Positions 48,042 through 63,637 of a DNA stretch of 64,000 bases are shown here, in pieces; within the stretch, counting starts at the first letter, position 1, and the number at the start of each line of letters is the position of its first letter. The position numbers and the translations under genes are program-made. The notes under the pieces are model-generated. The model was not told the origin of the DNA, made no database searches, and was given only the letters and a program-made list of their open reading frames with translations. Source of the stretch: Prevotella sp. (lineage in GTDB: Bacteria; Bacteroidota; Bacteroidia; Bacteroidales; Bacteroidaceae); assembly GCA_017462915.1 (NCBI GenBank), contig JAFTQG010000048.1:27184-91183 (forward strand). Direction: 5' to 3'.

Positions 48042-48392
48042 GTACTTATATGACACGTTTTATAAAAACGGGTAGCCTAATACCCATTAACATTCGTTAA
48101 AGGTTTAGGCTGCCCCTCCAAAAGAGTTGCTGATGGGGAGCAAGCTCTGGCAGAATTATGCATAAATAGTGTGATTGGAGCAAAATTATGCCTCAAATCG
48201 CCCATAAAATGTTAAATTCCAAATGAAAAATAGAGATTATCAGCAAATTCTTCTTTAATCTCAATAAATCTCCGTAATTTTGTGGTCAAAATATGACAAT
48301 TCTTACAAAGAAAAGTCCATTATCCTTTATCCAACCTATGAACTATACCTTGGTTGCAATGAAAAAGATTTAAAACAGACAAATGATATACT
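48042..48392 (+). promoter_or_regulatory. Regulatory region before the reverse transcriptase operon
   Basis: This stretch has no gene, but it has structure. A hairpin GGGTAGCCTAA (48070-48080) / TTAGGCTGCCC (48105-48115) has 11 pairs with one G-U and an inner TTAA/TTAA. Two near-palindromes, GCAGAATTATGC (48151-48162) and GCAAAATTATGC (48181-48192), lie exactly 30 bases apart, as for a dimeric repressor. A -7 box TAATTTTG is at 48275-48282. A 26-codon frame at 48293-48373 could be a leader peptide. A reverse-transcriptase template RNA could also lie here, but I see no proof. Confidence 0.5.
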
Positions 48393-49997
48393 ATGGCAAA
48401 AAATATATTAACACTTGACTCAAAGGGTGCAATGGATTTCTTCTTGAAGTCCGAACAATATCATGAATTTGAACTGCCTGAATATTTTGTTTTTGACACG
48501 CTACTTCAAAGCGTCAAAGATACTATAGGAGATATACCTTATGAGGAATGCCTTCAGGAAGGTGTACTACCAGAGCAACTTTCTGATGTGAATCTTGATA
48601 TTTTACTCAATAAAGATGGACGTTATGCAGTCCGTCCCATTATATTGGCGAATCCTTTTCTTTATTACTTTCTTGTACGCGAGATATGCAATGACAAATC
48701 ATGGAGTGTTGTAAAAGAAGCATTTGCAAAGTTCAAAGTACCACACATTACATCGTGTGCCTTACCAGTAATACCCCAGAAGAAAGAACCTTTTCATAAA
48801 TCTACAACTATACTTAATTGGTGGAGCAGCATGGAGCAACGTTCCATAGAGTTGTCTTTGGAATATCGCTACATGTTTGTTTCAGATATAACAAACTGTT
48901 ATGGCTCTGTCAACCCTCAAGCTTTCGATTGGGCGTTCAGCTTTAAAAATACACAGTACGAGAAATCTTGTGACATACCTATAGCAACAAATATCCAAAG
49001 ATACCTCCGTGCATTCCAACAGGGACGAAATATCGGCATACCACAGGGAAGTGCAGTTTTTGATTTTGTAGGCGAGATTATCCTCGGTTATTCTGACTTG
49101 TTACTCCATGAGGCAATACAAAAAGCTGACATCACCGTTGATTATGAAATAATCCGCTATCGCGATGACTATCGCATTTTCTGCAATGAGAAGGATACAC
49201 TTGAAAAAATTTCATACATATTACAACATGTACTGGAAAGTCTCAACTTCCGTATGAACAGTAAAAAGACAAAGATTAGTGACAGTATTGTTACCGATTC
49301 CATAAAGTCTGACAAACTTGCATACATCTACAATACCCCTATATTTAACAAGAAAGGTTGTGATTTTGACAGTTTTGAGAAGCACCTGCTTTATATACTG
49401 ATGTTTGCGCGCCAATATCCGGATAGCGGTTCTATAAAGACCATGCTTTCTGACATAGACAAACGCATAGAGAAATGGTTTGAACCACAAGAACGTAAAA
49501 TAGTGAACATAGAATCTTCAGATACTAATATATTTGAGAAAAGCACAGAAACCTATCAACGTAAACTTGTCGGAGGAAGTATACGTGCCATGTCTGCGAT
49601 ATGCACTCAAATAGCATTGGAGAATGTGGGATGTTGCCACTATGCTTTGCGTGTACTCAGTCGCATGGTCGATTCTTTGGAAGATAACAAAGAGAAATGG
49701 GATATCATTGACAAAGTATATTCAAAACTTTGCAATCAGCCAAACTCTGATTACAATCAGCTTTGGCTGCAAAACATTACATATCAGGAAGACAAGAAGA
49801 ATGGCATATCTCCATACACATTACGTCTTTGTCAACTTGTTGCGAGTAAGGAGGTAACACCTTTGTGGAATAATGATTGGTTAGAAACGAAATATACTTC
49901 AAATCTGCCATATAGTAGTATGATAAACGGTGAAACATTGATGAAAGTAACTCCAGTAATTACATTTAGAGAAACGAGAACATATTACGAACTTTAA
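48393..49997 (+). CDS. Reverse transcriptase of unknown/defence group
   Basis: This 534-residue RNA-directed DNA polymerase has motif A as FVSDITNCYGSV (about 162-173), motif B as NIGIPQGSAVFDFVGEI (about 211) and the catalytic box as RYRDDYRIF (about 256). It has no endonuclease, maturase (X) domain or intron RNA around it, so it is not a group II intron enzyme. The long N-terminal part (1-100) and the helical C-terminal part (290-534) resemble the layout of UG/Abi-type reverse transcriptases that act in phage defence. It is followed 12 bp later by the S1-ATPase gene, in a tight operon with a helicase-PIN gene. The DNA is much more AT-rich than the core genes. Confidence 0.88.
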   Translation: MAKNILTLDSKGAMDFFLKSEQYHEFELPEYFVFDTLLQSVKDTIGDIPYEECLQEGVLPEQLSDVNLDILLNKDGRYAVRPIILANPFLYYFLVREICNDKSWSVVKEAFAKFKVPHITSCALPVIPQKKEPFHKSTTILNWWSSMEQRSIELSLEYRYMFVSDITNCYGSVNPQAFDWAFSFKNTQYEKSCDIPIATNIQRYLRAFQQGRNIGIPQGSAVFDFVGEIILGYSDLLLHEAIQKADITVDYEIIRYRDDYRIFCNEKDTLEKISYILQHVLESLNFRMNSKKTKISDSIVTDSIKSDKLAYIYNTPIFNKKGCDFDSFEKHLLYILMFARQYPDSGSIKTMLSDIDKRIEKWFEPQERKIVNIESSDTNIFEKSTETYQRKLVGGSIRAMSAICTQIALENVGCCHYALRVLSRMVDSLEDNKEKWDIIDKVYSKLCNQPNSDYNQLWLQNITYQEDKKNGISPYTLRLCQLVASKEVTPLWNNDWLETKYTSNLPYSSMINGETLMKVTPVITFRETRTYYEL

Positions 49998-50009
49998 TTA
50001 CGAAATAAG

Positions 50010-53000
50010 ATGAGCGATAATTTTGAAAATATAATTCCAATAGCGGATTTCAATTGGGATGAATTTGAGAATAGTACAAGTTCAACAAAGGAAGAGCCAG
50101 AAAAGTTGGACGACGAAATTCTTGGTAAGGTTTCTGAGCACCATGTGATAAAAGGTACCGTAATTTCAATAGACAAGACAGAGGTTATCGTAAACATCGG
50201 CTACAAGAGCGACGGTATTATCTCTGCAAACGAGTTCCGTTACAATCCAGGCCTTAAGGTTGGTGATAAGGTTGAGGTGTATATTGAAAAACAAGAAAAC
50301 AAGAATGGTCTATTAATTCTCTCTCATAAGAAAGCTCGTCAGAACAAGAGTTGGGAGCGCATCAATGCCGCTCTCGACAACGAGGACGTTATCCAGGGCT
50401 ACGTCAAGTGTCGCACTAAGGGTGGTATGATTGTAGACGTATTCGGTATCGAGACATTCTTACCTGGTAGCCAAATTGATGTTCATCCTATATACGACTA
50501 CGATGTATTCGTAGGCAAAACAATGAAGGTTAAGGTTGTTAAAATCAACCAAGAATTTCGTAATGTAGTTGTCTCTCACAAAGTTATTATAGAACAAGAA
50601 CTATCTGAAAAAAGAAAGGAAAAACTCTCTAGAATTGAAGTTGGACAAGTCTATGAAGGAATTGTTTCAAACATTACGAATTACGGTGCTTTTGTAAATT
50701 TGGGCGATGTAACAGGCCTTGTCCATATAAAAGAGCTTGCTTGGAAATTCATTAAATCTCCTGAAAATGTTGTATCTTTAGATGAAAAAATCCGAGTAAA
50801 GGTTATTGATATTTCTGATGATAAGTCTAAGATTTCATTAAGTCGTAAGGCCTTATTACCCCAAATTGAAAATCTGCAAGAAGGTGATTGGGTCACTGGT
50901 ACGGTGGTTAAAAAAGTCGACTTTGGTGTAATTGTAGATATTGGCGATTTTAATGCTTTGGCCTCTGGCAAGGATCTTTCAAGTATCAATTATCAAATAG
51001 GAGATGTTATTGAGTGTAACATAATATCCAATTCTTTAGATGAAAAAAAGCACTGTAAGATAAAGGTTGGTAACAAACCTGAGCTTGAAAAATTTGTATC
51101 TTCGCATAACGTTGGGGATCACGTGGAGGTTACATTCATATCTTCCGAATCAGAGGCATCATTCATAACCGTTGCCTGTGACAATATGAAGATAGATGTT
51201 TCTAAAAAGGCCCTTATAGAACCATATCTATCTAGATGTCAAGAAGGAAGTCTGGCTTACGGCGAGATTATGGATTTTGTCTTTATCAAATTCAATCCCG
51301 AGTCATATAAGATAAAATTAAGCATGGCTCCTATTCTTCGCGAACGTGAGGTAGAAGAGGAAAATTGGCTAAAGGGACAGATAGAGTGTGGTTCTATTGT
51401 TGAGGCAGAGGTTACAAAGGTTACTAGAGTTGGGGCACATATTCATATCACTGGCACGAATATCTCAACTTTTATACCAAATGAAGAGTTGTCTCCAAAC
51501 AAAGTAATTAATGCGCAAAGTGAAGTCTTTGTAGGTGAGCAAATAGAGGTAGTTTATCTTGGTGAAATAGATGGGCGTATGAAGTTCAGCAGGTGTCCTC
51601 TTGTTAAGGACAAATATACGGATAATTTGTACGATTTGCCATTAATGGACCTTTTAGCAACTATGGATATTCATACCAATAAATTTATTGGTAAACTTGT
51701 ATCCACAAAAGATTTTTATTTCTTGACTGACCTTATCTCTGTTGCAAATGAAACAAGTTATGATAATGGCAAATTATTAGTTGATCCTGTTAATGGAAAA
51801 TGTCTCATAGCTATTGTTGATAATAGGTTACGCAATTTCTTCTCTGAGGGTTCTTATTATCAAGTAGAAATAGACGTAGCAAATAAAGCCTACAGGCAGA
51901 ACGAAGGAACTCCTTATCAGTTCCACGTTTCATCGAATAATATTAAAGAGGTAAATAATCCTTATCAAGAATCAGTGAGCCTGTCTTTCAAACAGCATAC
52001 CAGTCCAAACACAAATACAAGTGTTGCTAATTTGCTAGAGGAGGTAGGACAAGGTTTGTACACCAGCAAAAAGAGAATGTTCTTTGAACTTCTTCAGAAC
52101 GCAGATGACTCTGCTTCTGAAAATGGGGTTATGGTGAAAGTTCAAATAAGCGGACAGTATTTTATACTTACTCACGATGGCTATGCTTTCAATAAGCATG
52201 ATTTTGAATCTATCACATCTGCTGCTAAAAGCACGAAGAGTGCAAATAAGAAAAAAACAGGCTACAAAGGCATTGGTTTTAAGTCTGTTTTTACAAACTC
52301 AAATACTGTTTTAATTAAGAGTCGAGGGTATGAATTCGCTTTTGACAAAGGTTTGAAAACGTATAATGATTTCAAGGCCTTCTATTTCCATGTTAATGAC
52401 ATAGAGGATGATGAAGTCGCACAAGAACGTTTTATCCATAAATATCCAAAGTATTATAATGAGTTCCGAGGTGTAAAGGATATTCCTTGGCAACTTTTGC
52501 CAATCTGGTCAGCTGGTAGGCAGATTGAAGTCAAGGGTACAATTTTCAATGCTAGAGATAATGTGGCAATAGCATTGAAGATGAATAATGATACATTATC
52601 AGAATACGAAGACGCTGTTAAGGAAGTCTTCTCAGAGCCTCGGTTCATGTTATTTCTTCGCAATACGAGAAGAATTCAGTTTATAAGTGACGATAAATGT
52701 TATACTATTCAAAAAAATGTATTAAACGATGGACAAAATATCAGTTTGGTAAATTCTTTTAAACCTAAAGAATACAAGGAATCGTATCGTATATTCCTTA
52801 CGAATGATATTTGCGTAGATAATGACGCATTTATAAATGCGGGTGTAATGATAAAACGAGAAGAACGCCCTAACATTAGAGGAGAATATGAAAATTTCCT
52901 TGTTAGGATTGACAATGAGGGTAATTCGTTGGGGGATGTACCTTATGTGCCAGATAGAATAGCATCAGCAAATGAAACGTCGTTTTCTTTTGCTATAGAA

Positions 53001-56000
53001 GTTGATGGTGATGGACATGTGAAACCTATTGTTGAGAAGAATCTGTCATTGTATGCATACTTGCCTATGAATGACAGCCGATTTGCATTCCCGTTTTATA
53101 TCAATGCAGACTTCATTCCTAACTCTTCTCGCGAAGGTGTTCAAAGTGATAATCCGTGGAATTTCTTCTTGTTCTATAATATAGGAAGGAATATTGTTTC
53201 CATGGTTTCATCTCTTGCATCTGCCGAAGAATCTAATTATTTAAATCTCCTTCCATCCTCCTTGTTAAAAGCGGATGGTATAGATGATGAAACTTTAGTA
53301 GAATCCTTCAACAGAGGTTATCAGGAGGCACTATCCTCGGAGAGCTTTGTGCTCAATGATCAAGAAGTCGCAGTACCTTGCAGTCAAATAATTTTAGATT
53401 TGTCAGAGCTATCGTCTTATGTTGGTTACGAGGCTTTCTATACCTTAACAGGTAAGTTAAAACGTTTGCCATGTGAAGCTATTGACTCTAAAATCCTTGC
53501 CAAGGATATCTTTAATGTTGAAAAGTGTAAACGACATGATATCTATGATATTATCCAGGTCAACATGAATGGTGTTAGGTCTTGGATCTCTACATGTAAT
53601 GAAGAACAGCGTAACAAATTCTTCAATTGGTTAGCAATAGATGAAGATAACGAAGACACCGTTGTTTCTATACCTCTTATTCAATATGGCACAGAATGGC
53701 TATCCATTAATGAATTGTCTAAAAAAAACAACTATCTAGTAACTACGTCAAAATTCAGCTCAATTGTAGATTTGCTTGCCAAACTTGGTTTCGTATGTTC
53801 AAGCACCGTTTTAGATGGTCATCCTCTAGAAAATAGCATTGCTACCATAGATGAAAAGGAACTATTTAATCTAATTAAAGAAAAAGATATCACTTCGCTG
53901 TCTTTTAATGAGAGACTTCGTCTTGTAACATGCATGGCTGACTTTGAAAACGTTGGTGATAGCTCAATAGCTAACTGGTCTGTATTTAGGAGCCAGTTAG
54001 GTGAGTTTAAGCCTCTAAACGCAATGTTTGCATTGGATAGAATTGTTCCTGAATGGCTGCATGGCTACATGCTGGATAAAGACGAGTATGATCGTAAACT
54101 TGACAAATATCTTGTAAAAGAAGAAAATATTTTATCTTCTGTTGTAGAGCCCTCAATAACAGATATTTTAAATAAGGCGGATGTCTTTGATGTATATAAT
54201 TACTTCAAGGACAAGTGGACTAACACCTTAACAGAAAAATTAATTAAGTGTAACATTTCAAATATCATTTCTGTAGTTGAATTGTATTCTGCAACCCAGA
54301 AGGATTATATTAATTCCTTGGGGCCTATTTTACTTGACAGCAATGCGAATTACACACCCACTTCATTAGAATATAGGATAATCAAAATTGCTGTTTCTAA
54401 TTCTAATATAGAGTGTGTCAATATTTTGCGCTCAAAGATTAAGGTTGATGGTATAGATTTGAAGTCTATAACTTTGAAAGATGAATTCTATGTGGCCTAT
54501 GGAACTAAAAAATATGAATTCCATCTGTCGAAGATACTTGCGGATAAAACAGACTCTTCTAAGCTAAGTATGTTAGCTCAGAAATTTACTGACATCGCAG
54601 GGGCGAATGTTGTGTTTGCTCAGGACGAAGCAAATGCGAAAGACGTATATACAAATTTGTATCGTCAAATTTACAACAAGACAACATTATTGAATGTTGA
54701 GCAATTTTGTTTTTTGATGGTAATAGGTCAAAGTCCACAGTATTCATCCGTCACATACTCGGCTTTAAGAAATCTGATTAGAATTAATGATTCTAAACTG
54801 TTCTTAGATATATTAGATTTTTGTATGGATAATGACTTAGGAGATATTCTTGCTTTGTGTCTCAAAACTCCTAATATTGCCTATCCATGCGGAACGTTGT
54901 CCGGTAAATTTATCGACTGTGACGATTACACGCTGCTAAATGAAAGAGTGCCTGAGTTTATAAATACATGGGCTGATACAGATGAGAAAAAGCAATTTCT
55001 AAAAAAGTATGGTGTGCATGACGTAGAAGGTAATGACATACAGAGAAGAATGTCTTTCAAGGAGAATAAGATGAATAATAATCTCTGGAATATATCAGAT
55101 GTAAGTATTATTTCCGCTTTTCTTAATTGGGTGAAATCTTCTATACAATTACCTGTAACCGGTGATAATCAAGTAGAAATTCTGGATAAGCTATTTGATA
55201 CACTAAAGAATTCAAAGCTTTATTATGAGGATGATTTTTCGGAAGCTTCAGAATGGACTAACAAGTTATATCTTGATTGGAAGAAAACTAGTGGCATGAC
55301 TATCAAACTAGTTCCAGATTTACTTCCATTCCGTGGTATATACAATAGCATATGCTATTTTAAGGGGTATTGGGGAGAGTATTGTTACTTTAGTAACTCA
55401 AAAACGATATACATATCTTCAACTAAAGAACCCGCGTCCATATTAACCAATGTGTATGCTGATAGAAATATACCTTTTGGAAAAGACGATTGGAATAATA
55501 TATTCCTTGTTTCAGCTAACATCGTTAATGGCAAAGATCGTGAAATTGAGGAGTTAAAGAGGATTATAGCAGAACTGCGTTCCAAGAAACAGTCAAGAGA
55601 TGAGTCGGAAGTTGATGAACATGGAAAAGTCATTGAGAAAGATGACATTGACGAAACATCACGAGCAGAAATTAATAGACAAGCTCGTGTTGCAGCTAAA
55701 GAGTTCCTTTCCAGTTTGTCCGACTATGATTGTGATGAATGGGATGCGGAGAATTCATATAATATAATAACTGACAAGATTAAATATAAGGGTAAAACAA
55801 TAGTCGTCGTTGTATGTAGTTCACAAAGCAGAAAACTGTATTTGCATCCAAGAGCATTTGCAGAACTGATGCAAGATCCAGACAATTTACTCTTAAACTA
55901 TACAGGTGACCATAGGATATATTCGCTCTCATTTGATGATATTTTCACGGATAATCCAAATGTTAATATCGTATTTGATACGGATATTGTGACTCCTTCG

Positions 56001-56165
56001 GAAATAGCAGAACTTGCAAATAAGTATATGTATTCCAAAAAGACTTGCTTTGTGATAGAAAATCCTAAACATTCACAGTCTGATGCGATAAGTTCGTTTG
56101 GTCTAAACGAAAAGAAAGAAGATGGCGAAGTAGAAATTTTTGATTTAGAAAATATATTTGGATAG
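50010..56165 (+). CDS. Giant ribosomal S1-like / sacsin-type ATPase fusion protein
   Basis: The protein has 2051 residues. Residues 1 to about 285 look like the N terminus of Bacteroidetes ribosomal protein S1 (NFENIIPIADFNWDEFEN, then S1 domains near 44-110, 127-190 and 210-285, including CRTKGGMIVDVFGIETFLPG). More divergent S1-like units follow near 292-352, 368-405 and 460-530. A GHKL (HSP90/sacsin) ATPase starts near 670, with the N-box FFELLQNADD (about 690) and G-box GYKGIGFKSVF (about 750). A long middle region has no motif I know. A coiled coil lies near 1845-1880 and a last domain near 1890-2000. Role inferred: an ATP-driven sensor or effector on ribosomes or RNA, acting with the RT and helicase. 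Confidence 0.85.
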   Translation: MSDNFENIIPIADFNWDEFENSTSSTKEEPEKLDDEILGKVSEHHVIKGTVISIDKTEVIVNIGYKSDGIISANEFRYNPGLKVGDKVEVYIEKQENKNGLLILSHKKARQNKSWERINAALDNEDVIQGYVKCRTKGGMIVDVFGIETFLPGSQIDVHPIYDYDVFVGKTMKVKVVKINQEFRNVVVSHKVIIEQELSEKRKEKLSRIEVGQVYEGIVSNITNYGAFVNLGDVTGLVHIKELAWKFIKSPENVVSLDEKIRVKVIDISDDKSKISLSRKALLPQIENLQEGDWVTGTVVKKVDFGVIVDIGDFNALASGKDLSSINYQIGDVIECNIISNSLDEKKHCKIKVGNKPELEKFVSSHNVGDHVEVTFISSESEASFITVACDNMKIDVSKKALIEPYLSRCQEGSLAYGEIMDFVFIKFNPESYKIKLSMAPILREREVEEENWLKGQIECGSIVEAEVTKVTRVGAHIHITGTNISTFIPNEELSPNKVINAQSEVFVGEQIEVVYLGEIDGRMKFSRCPLVKDKYTDNLYDLPLMDLLATMDIHTNKFIGKLVSTKDFYFLTDLISVANETSYDNGKLLVDPVNGKCLIAIVDNRLRNFFSEGSYYQVEIDVANKAYRQNEGTPYQFHVSSNNIKEVNNPYQESVSLSFKQHTSPNTNTSVANLLEEVGQGLYTSKKRMFFELLQNADDSASENGVMVKVQISGQYFILTHDGYAFNKHDFESITSAAKSTKSANKKKTGYKGIGFKSVFTNSNTVLIKSRGYEFAFDKGLKTYNDFKAFYFHVNDIEDDEVAQERFIHKYPKYYNEFRGVKDIPWQLLPIWSAGRQIEVKGTIFNARDNVAIALKMNNDTLSEYEDAVKEVFSEPRFMLFLRNTRRIQFISDDKCYTIQKNVLNDGQNISLVNSFKPKEYKESYRIFLTNDICVDNDAFINAGVMIKREERPNIRGEYENFLVRIDNEGNSLGDVPYVPDRIASANETSFSFAIEVDGDGHVKPIVEKNLSLYAYLPMNDSRFAFPFYINADFIPNSSREGVQSDNPWNFFLFYNIGRNIVSMVSSLASAEESNYLNLLPSSLLKADGIDDETLVESFNRGYQEALSSESFVLNDQEVAVPCSQIILDLSELSSYVGYEAFYTLTGKLKRLPCEAIDSKILAKDIFNVEKCKRHDIYDIIQVNMNGVRSWISTCNEEQRNKFFNWLAIDEDNEDTVVSIPLIQYGTEWLSINELSKKNNYLVTTSKFSSIVDLLAKLGFVCSSTVLDGHPLENSIATIDEKELFNLIKEKDITSLSFNERLRLVTCMADFENVGDSSIANWSVFRSQLGEFKPLNAMFALDRIVPEWLHGYMLDKDEYDRKLDKYLVKEENILSSVVEPSITDILNKADVFDVYNYFKDKWTNTLTEKLIKCNISNIISVVELYSATQKDYINSLGPILLDSNANYTPTSLEYRIIKIAVSNSNIECVNILRSKIKVDGIDLKSITLKDEFYVAYGTKKYEFHLSKILADKTDSSKLSMLAQKFTDIAGANVVFAQDEANAKDVYTNLYRQIYNKTTLLNVEQFCFLMVIGQSPQYSSVTYSALRNLIRINDSKLFLDILDFCMDNDLGDILALCLKTPNIAYPCGTLSGKFIDCDDYTLLNERVPEFINTWADTDEKKQFLKKYGVHDVEGNDIQRRMSFKENKMNNNLWNISDVSIISAFLNWVKSSIQLPVTGDNQVEILDKLFDTLKNSKLYYEDDFSEASEWTNKLYLDWKKTSGMTIKLVPDLLPFRGIYNSICYFKGYWGEYCYFSNSKTIYISSTKEPASILTNVYADRNIPFGKDDWNNIFLVSANIVNGKDREIEELKRIIAELRSKKQSRDESEVDEHGKVIEKDDIDETSRAEINRQARVAAKEFLSSLSDYDCDEWDAENSYNIITDKIKYKGKTIVVVVCSSQSRKLYLHPRAFAELMQDPDNLLLNYTGDHRIYSLSFDDIFTDNPNVNIVFDTDIVTPSEIAELANKYMYSKKTCFVIENPKHSQSDAISSFGLNEKKEDGEVEIFDLENIFG

Positions 56166-56166
56166 T

Positions 56167-58473
56167 ATGTATAACACAAGAGAACAACATAAAAGATTCT
56201 TAGACAAAGAGCTTACTGCTATAAGTGAAGAATATCTACAAAAACTCAACACTAAAGCCGTTGCTCTGTTATCTAGGAATGAAGTATATGTAACACAGTT
56301 TGTTAAACTTAATCAGAATCTTAACATAGGCTCTGATTCCTCGGTGGCAACTAAGCAATCAGGACAATTAATATTGCGTTTTAAAAAAGATCGCGGTATA
56401 CCCCGCAGAAACGAATATTTTACAGCAATTGTTCTTGATGGCAAGATGTCCCTTCCTAAAAATTGGGGAAATTTATCGTGGGGTAAACTTAGATCTTTTC
56501 AAGTTGAATTTTCAGAAGTTCATTGTGTTTGGCAAGGAAAGGCTGATGATAAGGGATTTCTCGTCTGTGGTTTTTCTGGACTTTCTATAGAGATGGCTCG
56601 ATATTTGACTGAAAAAAATCTTCAAGGATGTGTTGTTGTTCTTGGGCCACAGGAACCTCCAACGGACTATTATCAAAATCTTATAAGCATTGTATCTAAT
56701 GAAGATACTAATATGCCAGCAAAATCAATGCTGAATTTTGATAAGAAAGGACTTGTGTGGAATCCACAACCTATCAGTTCAGACTCTTCGAACGTGTCTG
56801 CAATTATGGATTACCTTAAGAAGCAAGATGAATTAATCTTTCAAGGTCCTCCAGGTACAGGTAAAACATATCTTATGGCAGCATTAGTCAGAAAATTATT
56901 GGAAGAACACCATAGTGTCCTTGTAACAGCGATGACTAATCGCGCACTTATTGAACTTGCCCAAAAAGAAAGTCTTAAGCCTTATTTGTCGGATGGAAAA
57001 ATTGCGAAAACAAATGTTTCTGTCGACGAACTATCAGAGTGTAAAGACTTAAATCCTGTAAGCAGTAAGGAAATAACCTGTATTTCTGGGGTTGCAACAC
57101 TTTCAACATTCTATAATACAAGTGGATGGGCAAAAATTTGCTACAATGAACAACCGTTTGATTATGTAATAATGGACGAGGCTAGTCAATCATTATATGG
57201 GATGATAGCAGCTTGCAAAAATCTAGGAAAAAAAATAATCTGGATTGGAGATCAAGAACAGATGCAACCTATTGTGAAGTTAAGTGATGAAACATTAACT
57301 CGCAACAATTTTTCAATGCTTGCAAATGGTTTTAGAACATTATGCGAAAACTTTAGCTTTCCTTCTTTTGTCCTGAACGAGACACATCGTTTATTGCCAA
57401 ATGCTGCCGCTTTAACAAGTGTGTTCTATCATACGCCACTAAAATCAGTTGCTAAGTTTTTGTATACTCTCAACAATGTAAGTTTAGACTATATTCCCAA
57501 AGATGGTGGATGTTCATTGTATCTTTGTAATATGCCAATTGGCGAAAAAACTGATAGAAATGCTTGCCAAGAGGTAATCAATATAGTTTCATCATTATTG
57601 CAGATAGATGGTAAACTGGAAATTGCGATCTTATCCAAGTTTAGAGCTACAGTCAGAATGTTGCAAAATTGCTTAATAAACACAATTGGCAGTATTGATA
57701 ATGTATTAATTGATACAGTTGAGAGGGTTCAGGGAATGACTTGTGATGTTTGTATATTCTTTATCCCAAATACAATGATGAATATGTCTTTGGAACGTTC
57801 TCTTTTTAATGTAGCTACTAGCCGTGCTAAACAATTTACTCTAATAGTTGCAGACAAAGATGTTCTCAATACAAATTGTGATTATGCTGTACAACATTTC
57901 TTGAGTTTGGTTCATTCAAATGATTATAATGAAAAACATCCAATAACTGTTGATTTAGAAAACAAAAACGATAACCATATAAAAAAAATAGAACCAAAGG
58001 TTGTAGGCTATGTGGATCTAAGCAAATTTGAACGTAAAAGAAAAGAAATTATCAATGACAAAACGAATATATATATCATTGATACGAATGTCTTTGTCAA
58101 TTGCCCTGAAGTGATTTCAAAAATAGACAAGAAATATCTTATAATATTATCGGCAAAGGTCGTAGATGAGTTGGATAAACTTAAAATAACTTTAGACACA
58201 AAGGGACAAAAATCAGTACAGGATGCTTTAAGAAACATCAATCGCTGTTTTGAATCAAGAAATCTTAAGATGGAAACTGCCGATTTGAGCCAACTCCCAC
58301 CTGATCTAGATAAACGTTCTCCAGATAATATGATACTAAGTGTTGCACTAAAGCATCATACGGAAGGTGAGAATCCAATACTATTAACATCTGACAATGG
58401 TTTACAACTGAAAGCTAAAGGTTTGGGAATCAAGACCGTCACTCTGAATGAATTATTAAAGAAATATAAATAA
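56167..58473 (+). CDS. UPF1/Dna2-like superfamily 1 helicase fused to a PIN nuclease
   Basis: The 768-residue protein has Walker A FQGPPGTGKTYLM (about 225), motif II VIMDEASQS (about 336), motif III WIGDQEQMQPIV, motif V TVERVQGMTCDV and motif VI VATSRAKQ (about 549), the pattern of UPF1-like RNA/DNA helicases. A C-terminal PIN domain (about 630-768) has the four acidic positions in YIIDTNVF, VVDELDKLK, RSPDNMIL and LTSDNGLQ, so it should be an active RNase. The ATG is 1 bp after the preceding stop; the frame upstream of it offers only a TTG. Unwinding plus RNA cleavage is the expected activity. Confidence 0.9.
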   Translation: MYNTREQHKRFLDKELTAISEEYLQKLNTKAVALLSRNEVYVTQFVKLNQNLNIGSDSSVATKQSGQLILRFKKDRGIPRRNEYFTAIVLDGKMSLPKNWGNLSWGKLRSFQVEFSEVHCVWQGKADDKGFLVCGFSGLSIEMARYLTEKNLQGCVVVLGPQEPPTDYYQNLISIVSNEDTNMPAKSMLNFDKKGLVWNPQPISSDSSNVSAIMDYLKKQDELIFQGPPGTGKTYLMAALVRKLLEEHHSVLVTAMTNRALIELAQKESLKPYLSDGKIAKTNVSVDELSECKDLNPVSSKEITCISGVATLSTFYNTSGWAKICYNEQPFDYVIMDEASQSLYGMIAACKNLGKKIIWIGDQEQMQPIVKLSDETLTRNNFSMLANGFRTLCENFSFPSFVLNETHRLLPNAAALTSVFYHTPLKSVAKFLYTLNNVSLDYIPKDGGCSLYLCNMPIGEKTDRNACQEVINIVSSLLQIDGKLEIAILSKFRATVRMLQNCLINTIGSIDNVLIDTVERVQGMTCDVCIFFIPNTMMNMSLERSLFNVATSRAKQFTLIVADKDVLNTNCDYAVQHFLSLVHSNDYNEKHPITVDLENKNDNHIKKIEPKVVGYVDLSKFERKRKEIINDKTNIYIIDTNVFVNCPEVISKIDKKYLIILSAKVVDELDKLKITLDTKGQKSVQDALRNINRCFESRNLKMETADLSQLPPDLDKRSPDNMILSVALKHHTEGENPILLTSDNGLQLKAKGLGIKTVTLNELLKKYK

Positions 58474-58652: not shown

Positions 58653-60251
58653 ATGGCACTTGCAATAAATATAAACGACCTGCTTAACAAGCAGAAGATA
58701 GAGTCCAACCGAATTGAGTTCAAGAAGGGTTGGAATCCTGCGAGCATATATCACAGTATGTGTGCTTTCGCCAACGACTTTGATGACATTGGAGGTGGAT
58801 ATATTATCGTTGGTGTGGATACTGATGATAATACGGGTATGGCAATCCGTCCTGTAGAAGGTGTACCAATGGAAAAGATTGACGGCATCTTACAGGAGAT
58901 GGTTGGCTACAATAACAAGATGGCTCCATATTATTTACCCCGTACTTCTGTAGAAGAGGTGGATGGAAAGCAAGTGATTGTGATTTGGTGTCCTGCTGGC
59001 AGTTACCGTCCTTACTCCGTACCTGTGAATGTGACAGCCAAAGGTTCAAAGGAATATTTCTACATCCGCAGCGGCACAAGCAGCATTGAGTCAAAAGGCG
59101 AAGCCCTTGTTGAGTTGCGGGAATTGGCTAACCGTGTGCCTTTTGATGAACGTGGCAATAGCGACATTCAGTTGGAGGACATATCGTTGGTGCTTCTTCG
59201 TGACTACCTTGTGAAGGTTGGAAGTCGTTTGGCTGATGATGTGGTGACAACACCACTATCGAAGATACTTGACCAGATGGAACTATACACAGGACCAAAA
59301 GAGAACCGCTTGATACGGAATGTGGCAGCGATGATGTTCTGTGAGAATCCGAGCAATTTCTTCCCATATACGCAGATTGATGTGGTGACATTCCCTAACG
59401 GAAAGATGAAAGACCCGAACAATTTCACAGAAGTGACATTCAAGGGTAGCGTTCCGCAGATGATAAAGCAAACGATGGAATATATCAAAAGCAATGTTCT
59501 CAAAGAGAATGTCCGCAAAATATCAGGCAGACAAGAGGCTGAACGCTTTTGGAACTATCCATACGATGCCATTGAGGAGGCTGTGGTAAACTCTGTTTAT
59601 CACCGGGACTTCCTACAACATGAGCCAATAGAAATCACGATTGAACCTGATGGTATCTCTATACTCAACTGTCCTGGTCCAGACCGCAGTATCTCTAAGG
59701 AGGATATTGAGAAAGGCGATATGCTCAAAAGCCGTCGCTACCGCAACCGTCGCTTAGGAGACTTTCTGAAAGAACTTGACTTGACAGAAGGTCGCTCAAC
59801 AGGAGTTCCGACCATTCAAGCCAAGTTGGCAGAGAACGGTTCACCTCGTGCCATCTTTGAAACAACAGATGACCGCTTGACATTCTTAGTGACGATTCCT
59901 GTACATCAAGGATGTACGGAAAGTTCGGAGACAGGTGAATTTAGTTCGGAGAGAACAGCAAAAAGTTCGGAGACAAGTTCGGGAACTCAGCCCAAAAGTT
60001 CGAAGACAGACGGATTTAGTTCGGAGACAACACCGAAAAGTTCGGAGAGAAAGCAAAAAAGTTCGGAGAGAGTCCTTGACTTAATTAGACAAAAGCCTTC
60101 CATATCAGCTGCAGAAATTGCTATGATGATAGACATGTCTTCACGAGGTGTAGAGAAACAAATCAAAAGACTGCGTGAAGAAGGAATCATCAGACGTATT
60201 GGTGCTGACTTCGGTGGCTATTGGGAAATCATAACAAAAGAAAACGAATAA
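58653..60251 (+). CDS. AlbA_2 / RecG-like ATP-binding regulator with Ser-Ser-Glu repeats
   Basis: The 532-residue protein has an N-terminal AlbA_2 (Schlafen-type) domain (about 10-140, ESNRIEFKKGWNPASIYHSM and GGGYIIVGVDTDD), a C-terminal GHKL-type ATP-binding domain (about 295-400, EEAVVNSVYHRDFLQHEPIE), a low-complexity spacer of repeated SSET/SSER units (about 423-474) and a winged helix (about 485-525, ISAAEIAMMIDMSSRGVEKQ). Such proteins are usually DNA-binding regulators in mobile elements and defence islands. It is separated by 179 bp from the helicase gene and followed by the truncated XRE copy. Confidence 0.85.
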   Translation: MALAININDLLNKQKIESNRIEFKKGWNPASIYHSMCAFANDFDDIGGGYIIVGVDTDDNTGMAIRPVEGVPMEKIDGILQEMVGYNNKMAPYYLPRTSVEEVDGKQVIVIWCPAGSYRPYSVPVNVTAKGSKEYFYIRSGTSSIESKGEALVELRELANRVPFDERGNSDIQLEDISLVLLRDYLVKVGSRLADDVVTTPLSKILDQMELYTGPKENRLIRNVAAMMFCENPSNFFPYTQIDVVTFPNGKMKDPNNFTEVTFKGSVPQMIKQTMEYIKSNVLKENVRKISGRQEAERFWNYPYDAIEEAVVNSVYHRDFLQHEPIEITIEPDGISILNCPGPDRSISKEDIEKGDMLKSRRYRNRRLGDFLKELDLTEGRSTGVPTIQAKLAENGSPRAIFETTDDRLTFLVTIPVHQGCTESSETGEFSSERTAKSSETSSGTQPKSSKTDGFSSETTPKSSERKQKSSERVLDLIRQKPSISAAEIAMMIDMSSRGVEKQIKRLREEGIIRRIGADFGGYWEIITKENE

Positions 60252-60392: not shown

Positions 60393-63281
60393 ATGTCAAA
60401 AAAGATAGATAATATAAAGAATTTGAACATTTCCGATATGTCTTCATTAATATCGAATTTGTTGGAAAAGATGGGATTTGTCGATATCGTAAGAAATGAA
60501 GACTGTATCTCATGTGCTCAGAATATGTTGTTAGGAAAAAGCATAACGGTTTTTATTACTTTCCCATTCAAAATGGGTGGCATAGTATCTGGTGATTATA
60601 AACAATATGCAAAAAAAATCACTACTATTCGTGACAAATATTCTGCGAATGAAGTTTGTGTTTATTCCACGAATACTATATCCAATGGCTTTAAAGATTC
60701 TCTCGATTCAAATTTGGGCGCACTTAAAATCAAGTATATCGGTCGTGATGATTTAATATCTTTGATAGATAATTATTTTCCAGAATATTGGAGACACGAT
60801 GACATTGCATTAGTAAAATATGAAAAAGATGTATTATATCGTATTGGAGAAGATAGTGAATTACGACGATTAAAATTTCCTCAAGAGAAATACACTAAAT
60901 TACTTAATATTTTTATAGAACCTTTCCTTACTAGGTATTATGAAGATTCAAAAACGAAGGCTGCTACTCAAAAAAAATATTCTGTAGATGAATTGATAGC
61001 ACACAAAGAATCCTCTGTAATAGAAGGGCAAGCTGGTTCAGGTAAATCAACTCTATTAAAGCATATTGTACGTAAAGAAATTGAAGCAAATAGGACTAAA
61101 AACAAAAAGTATTATCCAATATATCTAAGTGCACTGGATATATTTAAGGCCAATTTTAAAATAGGAGATGCCATTCGTAATCAATTAGGTGATTATACCG
61201 AGGCTCCGCTCTCTGAATTATGTGAAGCTTATGAAATTCAGATATTTATAGATAGTATAGACGAGTTTGATGAAGAACAAACTAAAATTTTGGAAGAACT
61301 TGTATCTATAGAAAATAAATACAAGATAAAATACTATATAGCTTCTCGTAATGCAGACGCATTGATGAGAAAAACGAACAGTAAGTTGTCCAATTTCTCA
61401 ATACGCCGTTTTAATATAGAACAAGTGAAGCGATTCTTAACCTCATTCTTTTCTGGTGATGACATTAAAGCCTTCTCACTATTGGATGCCATTCGCAGTA
61501 ACCAAATGTTAGAGAAAATGCCTATTACCCCTCTTACATTATCATTGATATCTATTCTCTTTGAAGAAAATGAATTTGAGGTGCCAGCTACGGTATCTGA
61601 TATCTTCGACAATTTTAATACTCTCATTATAGGAAAAGCTGTAGTATCGAGTAAAATAGAATTTATTGATGCTTCATTTAAAGAAAGGATTATATCAATT
61701 TATGCTTTTAAATTATTGAATACACAATCACATATTCCAATGAAGAAAGATGAATTTATATCTTTCTTCAAGGATTATTATGAAGGGAAATCACTTCCAA
61801 TAAAGAAAGGTACTCTTGAGGATGTATTAACGTATTTAATAGGTAATACAGGAATACTATATCTAAAGGATGGTTGCTGGGTTGCATTTACTCATGATGC
61901 CTATATGGAATATTACGCAGCTCTTGAAATCTTTAAGCATTTGAGATTACATGAGCGAGATTTGGTGTCTAATTTTTTTAACCCCAATTGGCAAAGTGCA
62001 GCAATTTTTTATGGTGGTATGTCTAAAGATATGCCTGATTTTCTTCGGGCTATAAAAGAAAAAATATCTAAATCTCGGCATATAAACGAGTATATGGCCT
62101 CTATTTTTGGAGCTGGTTATTTGTTACAAGCATTATATCAAACTGACAATACTCTGCGCAAAGAAGTGATATTGGAAGCCTTAAATCTATCTTTAAAAAA
62201 TTTACAGATATTCAAGATGATAGCGGCTGACAATTTACCTGTATTCAAAAACTATAAACTTCCAATACTACATTTGATAAATTTTGTTTATTTCTACGAG
62301 TCGTTCAACTCTATAACATTAGGTCAGCCATTAGCTATGGCATTTGAAGAAAAGTATAAAGAGTTTGCTGTGACAAATGATTACGGTGACGGATACGGTT
62401 TGTTTGAACTTGCTTTTACTATGGATTCTCGAAGGATAAATAATACAGAACCATTAACAAAACTTATAATGGATACACCAGAAGTTCTAAAAGACCCTTC
62501 ACTACACGTGTTGGCAGAATTTTCTATGGTGTTACTTGGAAAAGACAAGTATAAAGAATTTATACAAGAACTTAAAAAATCAAGTGCGAAATTATCAGAT
62601 GTGCAATATGAGTTGGCAACTGTACCAATGAGTAAAATGCGTTTTTCTGCACTTGACACGATTCAAAAAAAATCAAAGGTTACTTTGTTCGTAGAAGGTA
62701 AAACAGATGCCGTAATCATAGAACATGCTTTTATGGTTTTAACCAACGGAGAATTGCCATATTGGAATATACAATGTGCTGGTTCTAGTCGTGATAGAGG
62801 CTCTTGTGAACAAGTTGCACAGACACTAAATCAATCATATGCTCATTGGAAGAATTCGCAAGATAATATATATATTGGCATTTTCGATCATGACAATGCT
62901 GGTATAGGAAGTTACAATGGACGATTAGAAAAAGTATTTGAAGAAAAAGAAAGATTACGTTTAAAAAAACATGCGGAAGCAAATATATATGGTTTGTGTA
63001 TACCTGTACCAGGAGAAATGGACCAATATCTGCAAGAAAAACAGGAGTTTAATTTTTTTGAGATAGAACATTACTTCGGTCATGAATATCTCAAAAAACA
63101 TGACATGCTTAAACCAACTTCACTTCCAGATATTTTTGAAATAAAAGATACCACAGGCGTAAAAACTAACTTTGCAAATAATTTGAGGAATGAAGTGAAA
63201 CCTTGTGTATTCCAACATTTTGCTTTGTTGTTTAAAATTATCGATGATATTGTAGGGGTTCATATAAATTATGAAATATAA
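60393..63281 (+). CDS. NACHT-type STAND NTPase with C-terminal TOPRIM domain
   Basis: The 962-residue protein has an N-terminal domain (1 to about 190) of unsure type, perhaps nuclease-like. The NTPase has Walker A VIEGQAGSGKSTLLKHIV (about 211) and Walker B IQIFIDSIDEFDEE (about 283), followed by a winged-helix and helical region (about 330-740). The C-terminal TOPRIM-like part shows LFVEGKTDAVIIEHAF (about 763) and IGIFDHDNAGIG (about 830). This is the layout of bacterial NLR-like immune proteins: sensor and ATP switch with a nucleic-acid-acting effector. It is AT-rich, lies between two copies of the XRE 5' end and has no partner gene, so it probably works alone. Confidence 0.85.
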   Translation: MSKKIDNIKNLNISDMSSLISNLLEKMGFVDIVRNEDCISCAQNMLLGKSITVFITFPFKMGGIVSGDYKQYAKKITTIRDKYSANEVCVYSTNTISNGFKDSLDSNLGALKIKYIGRDDLISLIDNYFPEYWRHDDIALVKYEKDVLYRIGEDSELRRLKFPQEKYTKLLNIFIEPFLTRYYEDSKTKAATQKKYSVDELIAHKESSVIEGQAGSGKSTLLKHIVRKEIEANRTKNKKYYPIYLSALDIFKANFKIGDAIRNQLGDYTEAPLSELCEAYEIQIFIDSIDEFDEEQTKILEELVSIENKYKIKYYIASRNADALMRKTNSKLSNFSIRRFNIEQVKRFLTSFFSGDDIKAFSLLDAIRSNQMLEKMPITPLTLSLISILFEENEFEVPATVSDIFDNFNTLIIGKAVVSSKIEFIDASFKERIISIYAFKLLNTQSHIPMKKDEFISFFKDYYEGKSLPIKKGTLEDVLTYLIGNTGILYLKDGCWVAFTHDAYMEYYAALEIFKHLRLHERDLVSNFFNPNWQSAAIFYGGMSKDMPDFLRAIKEKISKSRHINEYMASIFGAGYLLQALYQTDNTLRKEVILEALNLSLKNLQIFKMIAADNLPVFKNYKLPILHLINFVYFYESFNSITLGQPLAMAFEEKYKEFAVTNDYGDGYGLFELAFTMDSRRINNTEPLTKLIMDTPEVLKDPSLHVLAEFSMVLLGKDKYKEFIQELKKSSAKLSDVQYELATVPMSKMRFSALDTIQKKSKVTLFVEGKTDAVIIEHAFMVLTNGELPYWNIQCAGSSRDRGSCEQVAQTLNQSYAHWKNSQDNIYIGIFDHDNAGIGSYNGRLEKVFEEKERLRLKKHAEANIYGLCIPVPGEMDQYLQEKQEFNFFEIEHYFGHEYLKKHDMLKPTSLPDIFEIKDTTGVKTNFANNLRNEVKPCVFQHFALLFKIIDDIVGVHINYEI

Positions 63282-63628: not shown

Positions 63629-63637
63629 AATGTGATT

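Follow-up and report, generated by a model that had tools for sequence, protein, structure and literature searches.

A probable defence operon joining an AbiP2-type reverse transcriptase to an S1-sacsin ATPase and a helicase-PIN protein in Prevotella

The stretch analysed here, called the window, comprises 64,000 nucleotides of contig JAFTQG010000048.1 from the Prevotella sp. assembly GCA_017462915.1 (positions 27,184 to 91,183), and contains an operon of three genes, all on the + strand and all uninterrupted over their whole length. The first open reading frame (ORF), at 48393..49997, encodes an AbiP2-type reverse transcriptase (RT) of 534 aa; the second, at 50010..56165, encodes a 2051-aa protein in which S1 units are joined to a sacsin-type ATPase; and the third, at 56167..58473, encodes a UPF1-like superfamily 1 (SF1) helicase with a C-terminal PIN_4 RNase domain, 768 aa long from its ATG, with an alternative in-frame TTG start possible at 56158. 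The genes are as tightly packed as the initial annotation of this DNA had described, with 12 bp between RT and ATPase and 1 bp between ATPase and helicase, and the domain make-up that it read from the letters is borne out by Pfam, which finds RVT_1 in the RT (8.1e-9), S1 in five stretches (1.1e-47) together with SACS (9e-9) in the ATPase, and AAA_11 (2.6e-15; also AAA_12) and PIN_4 (2.7e-21) in the helicase. Its proposal that these genes serve defence is also supported, by intact motifs, by the AbiP2 family of the RT, by recurrent coupling of the genes and by defence-type neighbours, and we consider the operon very probably a defence operon.

The RT can be assigned to a known family. The AbiP2 model of PADLOC (PDLC03744) matches residues 2-532 on model positions 4-484 of 489 at 1.8e-162, with UG14 as the runner-up PADLOC family at 2.9e-35. 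A four-RT profile matched the solved Abi-P2 structure (PDB 7r08) at 5.5e-94, and the Abi-P2 proteins of phages P2-EC58 and P2-EC30 are 29-30% identical to the RT over 93-94% of the query; these homologues have the same priming-tyrosine position and YxDD, whereas the window RT carries an insertion relative to the phage protein at about residues 365-393. The catalytic residues D165 and YRDD (256-259) are intact, and in an alignment of 61 RTs, from which pieces shorter than 380 aa (L119, L124, L129, L132, L134) and the duplicate L006 were left out, D165, D258 and D259 are present throughout. Position 31 is a tyrosine in 59 of these 61 proteins, the two exceptions (L106, L054) being N-terminally short, and by our own mapping (the L049 ORF numbering is one lower) Y31 aligns with Tyr61 of Abi-P2, which part of PMC9508834 describes as required for priming in its template-free DNA synthesis. 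RVT_1 is the sole Pfam family in the protein, with no nitrilase fusion of the kind found in DRT1. Judged from its sequence, the RT is thus a full-length AbiP2 family protein that has kept the priming tyrosine and YRDD.

This assignment bears on two points of the initial annotation. It had held that known defence RTs have partners other than this trio; the RT protein itself belongs to a known group, and known Abi-P2 is a single gene without such a trio. It had also suggested that the RT makes DNA from a template; since the AbiP2 family members studied so far make untemplated DNA, and a section of PMC12632851 places AbiP2 in the untemplated Class 1, templated synthesis is unlikely, and the window RT can be expected with good confidence to make untemplated DNA. 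The same section states that the role in defence of the random DNA made by Abi polymerases has not been elucidated. Membership in a DRT3-like system was considered and rejected, the two RTs of G193 adjoining a separate cluster. One further RT, L116, from a gammaproteobacterial (Succinivibrionaceae) assembly, shares 48% identity with the window RT and clusters, on a long branch, with Bacteroidales RTs, which points either to horizontal transfer or to a binning error.

The N-terminal 312 residues of the ATPase (50010..50945, + strand) correspond to ribosomal protein S1, namely its anchor segment, the domains D1 and D2 and a diverged D3, and are followed at 50946..51689 (+ strand) by further S1-like units common to other S1-sacsin proteins. 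The earlier count of up to six S1 units proved slightly generous: our own S1 profile finds four clear units (residues 126-190, 209-279, 289-347 and 458-527), one weak unit (45-95, E 7e-4) and two marginal traces, at 366-384 and 419-438. Residues 1-312 are 65% identical to a 596-aa S1 frame of the same genome, taken as rpsA. An S1 match at 1e-30 was found in 50 of 60 genomes of relatives, and identity between residues 1-312 and such frames is 61-66% within the genus (59-64% for one broken copy) and 52-59% in other families. Compared domain by domain with 28 rpsA proteins (27 from the same genus and one from another family, the wrong-frame L261 being excluded), the ATPase shows 53% identity in the N-terminal segment, 74% in D1, 85% in D2 (79% as the mean over D1-D2) and 48% in D3, then 42% over 286-312 and 19-25% further on; the rpsA proteins compared with one another in the same stretches average 71-95%. 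Residues 313-560 align at 37-40% with residues 112-365 of the S1-sacsin proteins L037, L088 and L092, which have no rpsA-like start, such a start being found in the window ATPase only. Because residues 1-312 resemble rpsA while 313-560 resemble other S1-sacsin proteins, the gene is best read as a chimera, in which the first part of rpsA was grafted onto an older S1-sacsin gene. At the DNA level, identity to the rpsA of the same genome is 76% over 455 bp, with a GC content of 37% against 50%, suggesting that the capture was not recent and that this host need not have been the donor.

The part of S1 that was captured includes the putative ribosome anchor. The aromatic-acidic segment DFNWDEFEN is kept in the window ATPase, and the motif F[ND]W[DE].[FY] is shared by this protein and 28 of the 29 ORFs extracted, the exception being the wrong-frame L261; among all window ORFs of at least 100 aa it occurs once. 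For E. coli S1, a section of PMC4288201 reports that the first 106 residues are enough for assembly onto the 30S subunit, mainly through two phenylalanines of the N-terminal segment that stack on uS2. By analogy, we infer that Bacteroidales use the S1 N-terminal segment as E. coli does, and on balance we slightly favour docking of the ATPase on the ribosome through its S1 piece. The earlier suggestion that the protein senses altered ribosomes is thereby sharpened, in that the N-terminus of the ATPase was captured from ribosomal S1 and retains the portion by which S1 is anchored to the ribosome. Alternatively, the S1 piece could serve as a decoy for, or a sensor of, phage proteins that take hold of ribosomal S1, with binding switching the ATPase on. 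The domains kept here, D1-D2, are also those that Q-beta replicase holds (described in a portion of PMC4288201), as this idea would have it, and the RT operons L006/L086 and L089, of another type, contain an S1 protein of their own with 37-41% identity to rpsA across some 370-430 aa. The retained anchor segment, however, fits docking equally well. No Bacteroidales phage factor seizing ribosomal S1 is known to us, no search aimed at one having been made; this counts against a decoy, and we regard this alternative as less likely than not.

Behind the S1 units lies a Tiamat-like sacsin/HSP90-type GHKL ATPase region (51990..53759, + strand), in which residues 664-1148 match the PADLOC TmtA model PDLC03972 at 1.7e-91; NF047352 matches the protein at 4.5e-20, and the GHKL motifs are intact (FELLQNADDS at 692, GYKGIGF at 751). 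The long C-terminal region (53760..56162, + strand) is matched by a second TmtA model, PDLC03970, at 1e-85, with its best stretch at 1405-1961. The helicase has an intact Walker A motif (GPPGTGKT at 227), and its Pfam PIN_4 domain (58072-58446, + strand) retains the acidic residues D639, E668, D720 and D743, which are invariant in 9/9 proteins. An AlphaFold model of the helicase-PIN protein (mean predicted local distance difference test, pLDDT, 78.8) has UPF1 (2xzo) as its best Foldseek match in the PDB at 1.4e-23, with a template modelling score of 0.44 by query and 0.53 by target; IGHMBP2 and SETX/Sen1 also match, and the Upf1-Nmd4 complex is listed as well. The PIN domain is a likely candidate for the killing RNase. 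Elsewhere, L202 (2563-4917) and L203 (15053-17332) encode a sacsin-profile match and a PIN domain in one chain without a helicase; in L202 Pfam finds PIN_4 alone and the sacsin match comes from our own profile. PIN domains on such proteins lend mild support to a link between ATPase and PIN.

Relatives of the RT were collected with a four-RT alignment from a GTDB set in which each species is represented by a single genome; because two peptide patterns seeded the scan, it gives a sample rather than a full census. Among 103 pattern matches, 58 loci encode RT relatives, and in 50 of these the RT ORF is no shorter than 480 aa. Genes were counted as partners when they lay in the same uninterrupted run as the RT, all on one strand and with no gap exceeding 200 bp. 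By this definition 33 of the 50 loci have a partner gene encoding 300 aa or more, not all of these genes being defence-like (that of L108 is a leucine-rich repeat protein). Not counting the window, a sacsin-type ATPase accompanies the RT in 11/50 loci, a helicase-PIN in 9/50 and both in 8/50, to which L114 can be added, its sacsin piece being cut by the contig end. The order RT-ATPase-helicase is found in the window, L083, L084, L088, L092, L103 and L105, and the order ATPase-helicase-RT in L111, L114 and L133; the gaps between the RT and its neighbour in these ten loci, in the sequence given, are 12, 12, 105, 28, 18, 96, 33, 4, 3 and 3 bp. L083 has a short ATPase and helicase, L105 a split ATPase and L088 a helicase in two frames. 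The expectation that the three genes would be neighbours in other genomes is therefore upheld by the helicase-PIN genes beside RTs, and the trio is not obligatory.

Surveys were also started from the individual genes. The AbiP2 profile matches at 1e-20 in 11 of 393 genomes of the order (6 of them above 500 bits); a match to the sacsin region is present in 23 of 393. A helicase/PIN match at 1e-50 is present in 11 of 398 genomes of the genus, two of these in the PIN alone; ten stretches lie behind this survey, three of them shorter than 9 kb, and among the 11 an RT in the stretch was seen only for the window and G503 (L194, a duplicate of L084), while G577 has an AbiP2 RT elsewhere in its genome. 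The coupling between RT and ATPase-helicase is thus recurrent and a minority arrangement on both sides. In viral contigs the RT was found in one IMG/VR entry only, with the same operon as Hoylesella nanceiensis L086, and 46 of 48 IMG/VR helicase matches were at 8e-19 or weaker. AbiP2 relatives occur in plasmids (123 records) and phages (6 records), all below 60% identity. The sacsin region has two weak plasmid matches, and the helicase has matches in 32 plasmid records, all of which fall short of 80% query coverage; phage records gave no match for either, and pattern scans with the sacsin region alone gave none.

RTs of the same clade are also found with other modules. One consists of an S1 protein, a helicase and a DarT-like protein in L086 (the same operon as L006) and L089, and in L078, where S1 is fused to the helicase. 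These loci (L006/L086 10001-21669, L089 and L078) combine the RT with an S1 protein, a Mokosh-like helicase and a large DarT-like ADP-ribosyltransferase protein, the DarT-like domain being Pfam-tested in L006 and assigned by BLAST in L089 and L078. Other RTs adjoin different Tiamat-type ATPases (L085, L091, L099), the candidate system PDC-M16A/B of PADLOC (tested with PADLOC in L080 and L101, by BLAST clustering in L102, L113, L116 and L122), or DUF1848 with a DpdF-like helicase (tested in L110, by our own profiles in L096 and L133). In L219 (1502-3022), where the promoter-like motif described below comes first, an 80-aa ORF consists of two RT ends with an internal deletion and is followed by a sacsin/Tiamat-like ATPase (own profile), as if the RT had been lost and its partner retained. 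In L039 and L040 the sacsin-helicase pair adjoins an Eco57I methylase, in L039 with a SNF2 helicase gene too, and possibly forms a larger restriction-like system; L198 has two large genes where these loci carry the methylase.

Phylogenies of both ends of the operon are consistent with such exchange. On a tree of 58 RTs (the short or broken L106, L107 and L118 being left out), the RT-ATPase-helicase label, carried by 7 rows, requires 7 changes, each of them forced by starred branches, against a shuffled mean of 6.7; all eight module labels together are clustered, with 20 changes against 26.0 shuffled, several of the family labels resting on profiles for which some of these very proteins had been used. 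In a helicase tree of 23 rows, from which the partial L083 and L201 and the duplicate L194 were left out and in which L195 was trimmed to its helicase part, the RT-linked label (9 rows) requires 5 changes, all forced by starred branches; shuffles average 7.3 and are as low as 5 in 33/500, so that the label is partly clustered. As far as gene order and trees can tell, the trio is the result of repeated re-pairing of modules and not one inherited block.

We propose that the window encodes an abortive-type anti-phage operon, in which an AbiP2 RT cassette is joined to an exchangeable effector pair of sacsin-type ATPase and helicase-PIN, a reading for which we consider the chances evenly balanced. 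In this mechanism, the RT would prime on Tyr31 and make untemplated, protein-linked single-stranded DNA, as Abi-P2 does, and the RT-DNA adduct would hold or license the partner, with a disturbance by the phage (a helicase, a nuclease or a change in deoxynucleoside triphosphates) being read out, in line with proposals made for DRT1 and for retrons. The S1 anchor segment and D1-D2 would dock the ATPase on the 30S subunit, and switching of the ATPase would release the helicase-PIN to cut ribosome-associated RNA, such that translation stops and the infection is aborted. That the adduct is the controller seems plausible to us at somewhat less than an even chance; this step is modelled on DRT1, whose template-free adducts both activate and hold the effector according to part of PMC13275509.

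Several observations weigh against this proposal. No S1 units are present in 7 of the 10 trio loci (L083, L084, L103, L105, L111, L114, L133), and ribosome docking can for this reason not be the general mechanism; the relatives concerned would have to find their RNA target by other means. The C-terminal region of the ATPase is unexplained, its AlphaFold model having a mean pLDDT of just 50.5, and one section of PMC11077055 casts doubt on cell death as the mode of action of AbiK. None of these partners accompanies the AbiP2 genes on six phage and plasmid records (that of P2-EC58 being 2.3 kb). The RT is solo in 10 of the 50 loci under the thresholds used, sacsin-helicase pairs occur without an AbiP2 RT in L037, L038, L041, L047 and L196-L200 (the L200 ATPase being placed by position alone), and the nearest RT with a known module (L078, 79%) carries a different one. 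Further, an excerpt of PMC13275509 reports that for DRT1 DNA synthesis alone is insufficient and contrasts this with Abi polymerases; by this contrast, synthesis by an Abi RT may suffice without a partner. The solo RTs, the pairs without an AbiP2 RT and this contrast, together with the scatter of module labels on the RT and helicase trees, would be expected if two independent systems, a solo AbiP2 RT and a sacsin-helicase-PIN system, merely shared a promoter in a defence island. This explanation is rather improbable in our view, given how close the RT lies to its neighbour (3-105 bp across ten loci), the occurrence of two gene orders, repeated re-pairing, a single promoter motif before the RT, and the equally close packing of RTs from this clade with other large helicase or ATPase modules.

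The promoter/operator-like motif, TTTTGTGGTCAAAATATGACAATT, lies at 48278..48301 (+ strand) and is the sole match in its own genome at up to 3 mismatches. The motif precedes RT operons with different modules (L083, L084, L085, L086, L088, L089, L091, L092, L107) as well as truncated RT remnants in G019 and G023; in L078 it stands before a NusG-like gene that leads the operon, and in L079 about 800 bp before the RT. Among 299 genomes of the genus, 23 contain the motif at up to 1 mismatch, against 0 for a reversed-pattern control. Four of these sites precede an AbiP2 RT (the window's own included) and two an RT remnant; seven precede Pfam-tested genes that we counted as defence-like, one each with PAPS reductase, DUF2971, N6-methylase, NERD, DEAD helicase, HsdM and AbiJ_NTD4, and two more precede genes resembling two of those seven by sequence. 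One site lies before NusG and a sugar-dehydrogenase-like gene, one before genes without a Pfam match, and at the remaining six (L209, L210, L218, L221, L223, L225) nothing defence-like was found. Across the genus, a short palindromic motif (TTTGTGGTCAAAATATGACAATT) thus stands before different operons (L205-L227 and the window), and possibly marks a shared defence regulon. An invertible promoter was considered and rejected, no matching inverted repeats flanking the motif.

The RT is preceded by some 350 noncoding bp that are conserved in part, as might be expected if the RT copied a dedicated noncoding RNA in the manner of DRT2, DRT9 or DRT10. Conservation with distant relatives is, however, limited to the short promoter-like motif, which also precedes non-RT genes; no Rfam match was found in 42000-64000; and AbiP2 belongs to the untemplated Class 1 (in the section of PMC12632851 cited above). 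A dedicated RNA template of the DRT2, DRT9 or DRT10 kind is therefore very improbable. As to a retron-type msr-msd RNA beside the RT, the observations are likewise the lack of an Rfam match and a conservation confined, among distant relatives, to the short motif.

The surroundings of the operon agree with the mobile element beside conflict genes that the initial annotation had described, with recombinases upstream and defence-type genes downstream according to Pfam. Upstream lie two tyrosine recombinases, an HTH_17 protein and a weakly IstB-like ATPase (below the Pfam cut-off). Downstream follow a SLFN_AlbA_2/HATPase_c_4 gene, a NACHT protein, an HTH gene and an AEP-TOTE gene; since the contig stops at the right edge of the window, the right end of the mobile element is not visible. 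The first of these genes (58653..60251, + strand), with Pfam SLFN_AlbA_2 and HATPase_c_4 and a winged helix-turn-helix domain, starts 179 bp past the helicase-PIN gene and is a possible fourth component. A SLFN family gene follows the helicase also in both other loci with an RT and S1-sacsin, L092 (by Pfam) and L088 (by our own profile and BLAST only); as a certain component it was rejected, the genome having six copies of the family. The NACHT protein is encoded at 60393-63281 and its C-terminal part is TOPRIM-like by eye only, and the AEP-TOTE conflict gene starts at 63632 and is cut by the contig end at 64000. The two integrases adjoining the operon, and a combination of S1, UPF1-like helicase and PIN that recalls RNA surveillance, could also be accommodated by an operon for ribosome quality control or element maintenance with no antiviral role. 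We consider this improbable, given the sporadic distribution of AbiP2-profile matches in the order, the defence-type partners and neighbours, and the truncated RT remnants in two relatives.

The trio was not found as a named system in the literature searched, as had been anticipated: no description of an AbiP2 RT accompanied by both a sacsin ATPase and a helicase-PIN protein turned up, with the limit that the tables of the main UG/Abi survey may hold one, and no paper combined 'AbiP2' with 'S1 domain'. The general idea of RT partners is already known, PADLOC holding the RT-associated models RTas1465, RTasDUF1848 and RTasHel. In contrast to the single-gene Abi-P2, the window RT has an ATPase and a helicase-PIN as partners, which, at 12 and 1 bp gaps and recurrent in relatives, set the operon apart from that system. 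TmtA, which we take to be the Tiamat system, has the sacsin-type GHKL ATPase in common with the window, its models giving only partial coverage; Tiamat is a single-gene system, whereas the window adds S1 units in front and the RT and helicase-PIN as partners. L044 (141-7171) encodes in a row a UG19 RT (9.6e-104), an RTas1465-like gene (1.2e-20) and a TmtA-type ATPase (1.3e-224), making it a second RT group with such an ATPase; this set has an RT of another group and, in its 7.3-kb contig, neither a helicase-PIN nor S1. The PADLOC MkoA/MkoC models, presumably those of Mokosh, are similar to part of the SF1 helicase only (4.3e-30), and the window protein has PIN_4 in place of the Mokosh partner domains and nuclease. 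DRT1 likewise makes template-free, protein-primed DNA, and its adduct is proposed in part of PMC13275509 to keep the effector dormant; it is, however, a Class 3 enzyme with serine priming and a fused nitrilase, while the window RT is Class 1 with, by alignment, tyrosine priming and candidate effectors in separate genes. UPF1, the best helicase fold match, acts with PIN partners (SMG6, Nmd4) in nonsense-mediated decay, whereas the window protein is a bacterial single chain known here from sequence and predicted fold.

Tentatively, Bacteroidales AbiP2 RTs may be exchangeable, retron-like alarm cassettes, in which one adduct is wired to many killing modules, the window's version using an S1 anchor of N-terminal segment, D1 and D2 to bring a helicase-PIN to the translating ribosome. 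With closely related AbiP2 RTs beside different candidate effectors, the role of the random DNA of Abi polymerases becomes testable, and one can ask of such operons whether the RT decides the trigger and the partner the outcome. The graft of S1 introduces the idea that a copy of a ribosomal domain could tether a defence protein to the ribosome, and the helicase-PIN offers a parallel in bacteria to the pairing of UPF1 with PIN proteins in the mRNA decay of eukaryotes. The operon as a whole resembles an antiviral alarm of the plug-in kind, with protein synthesis as its possible target.

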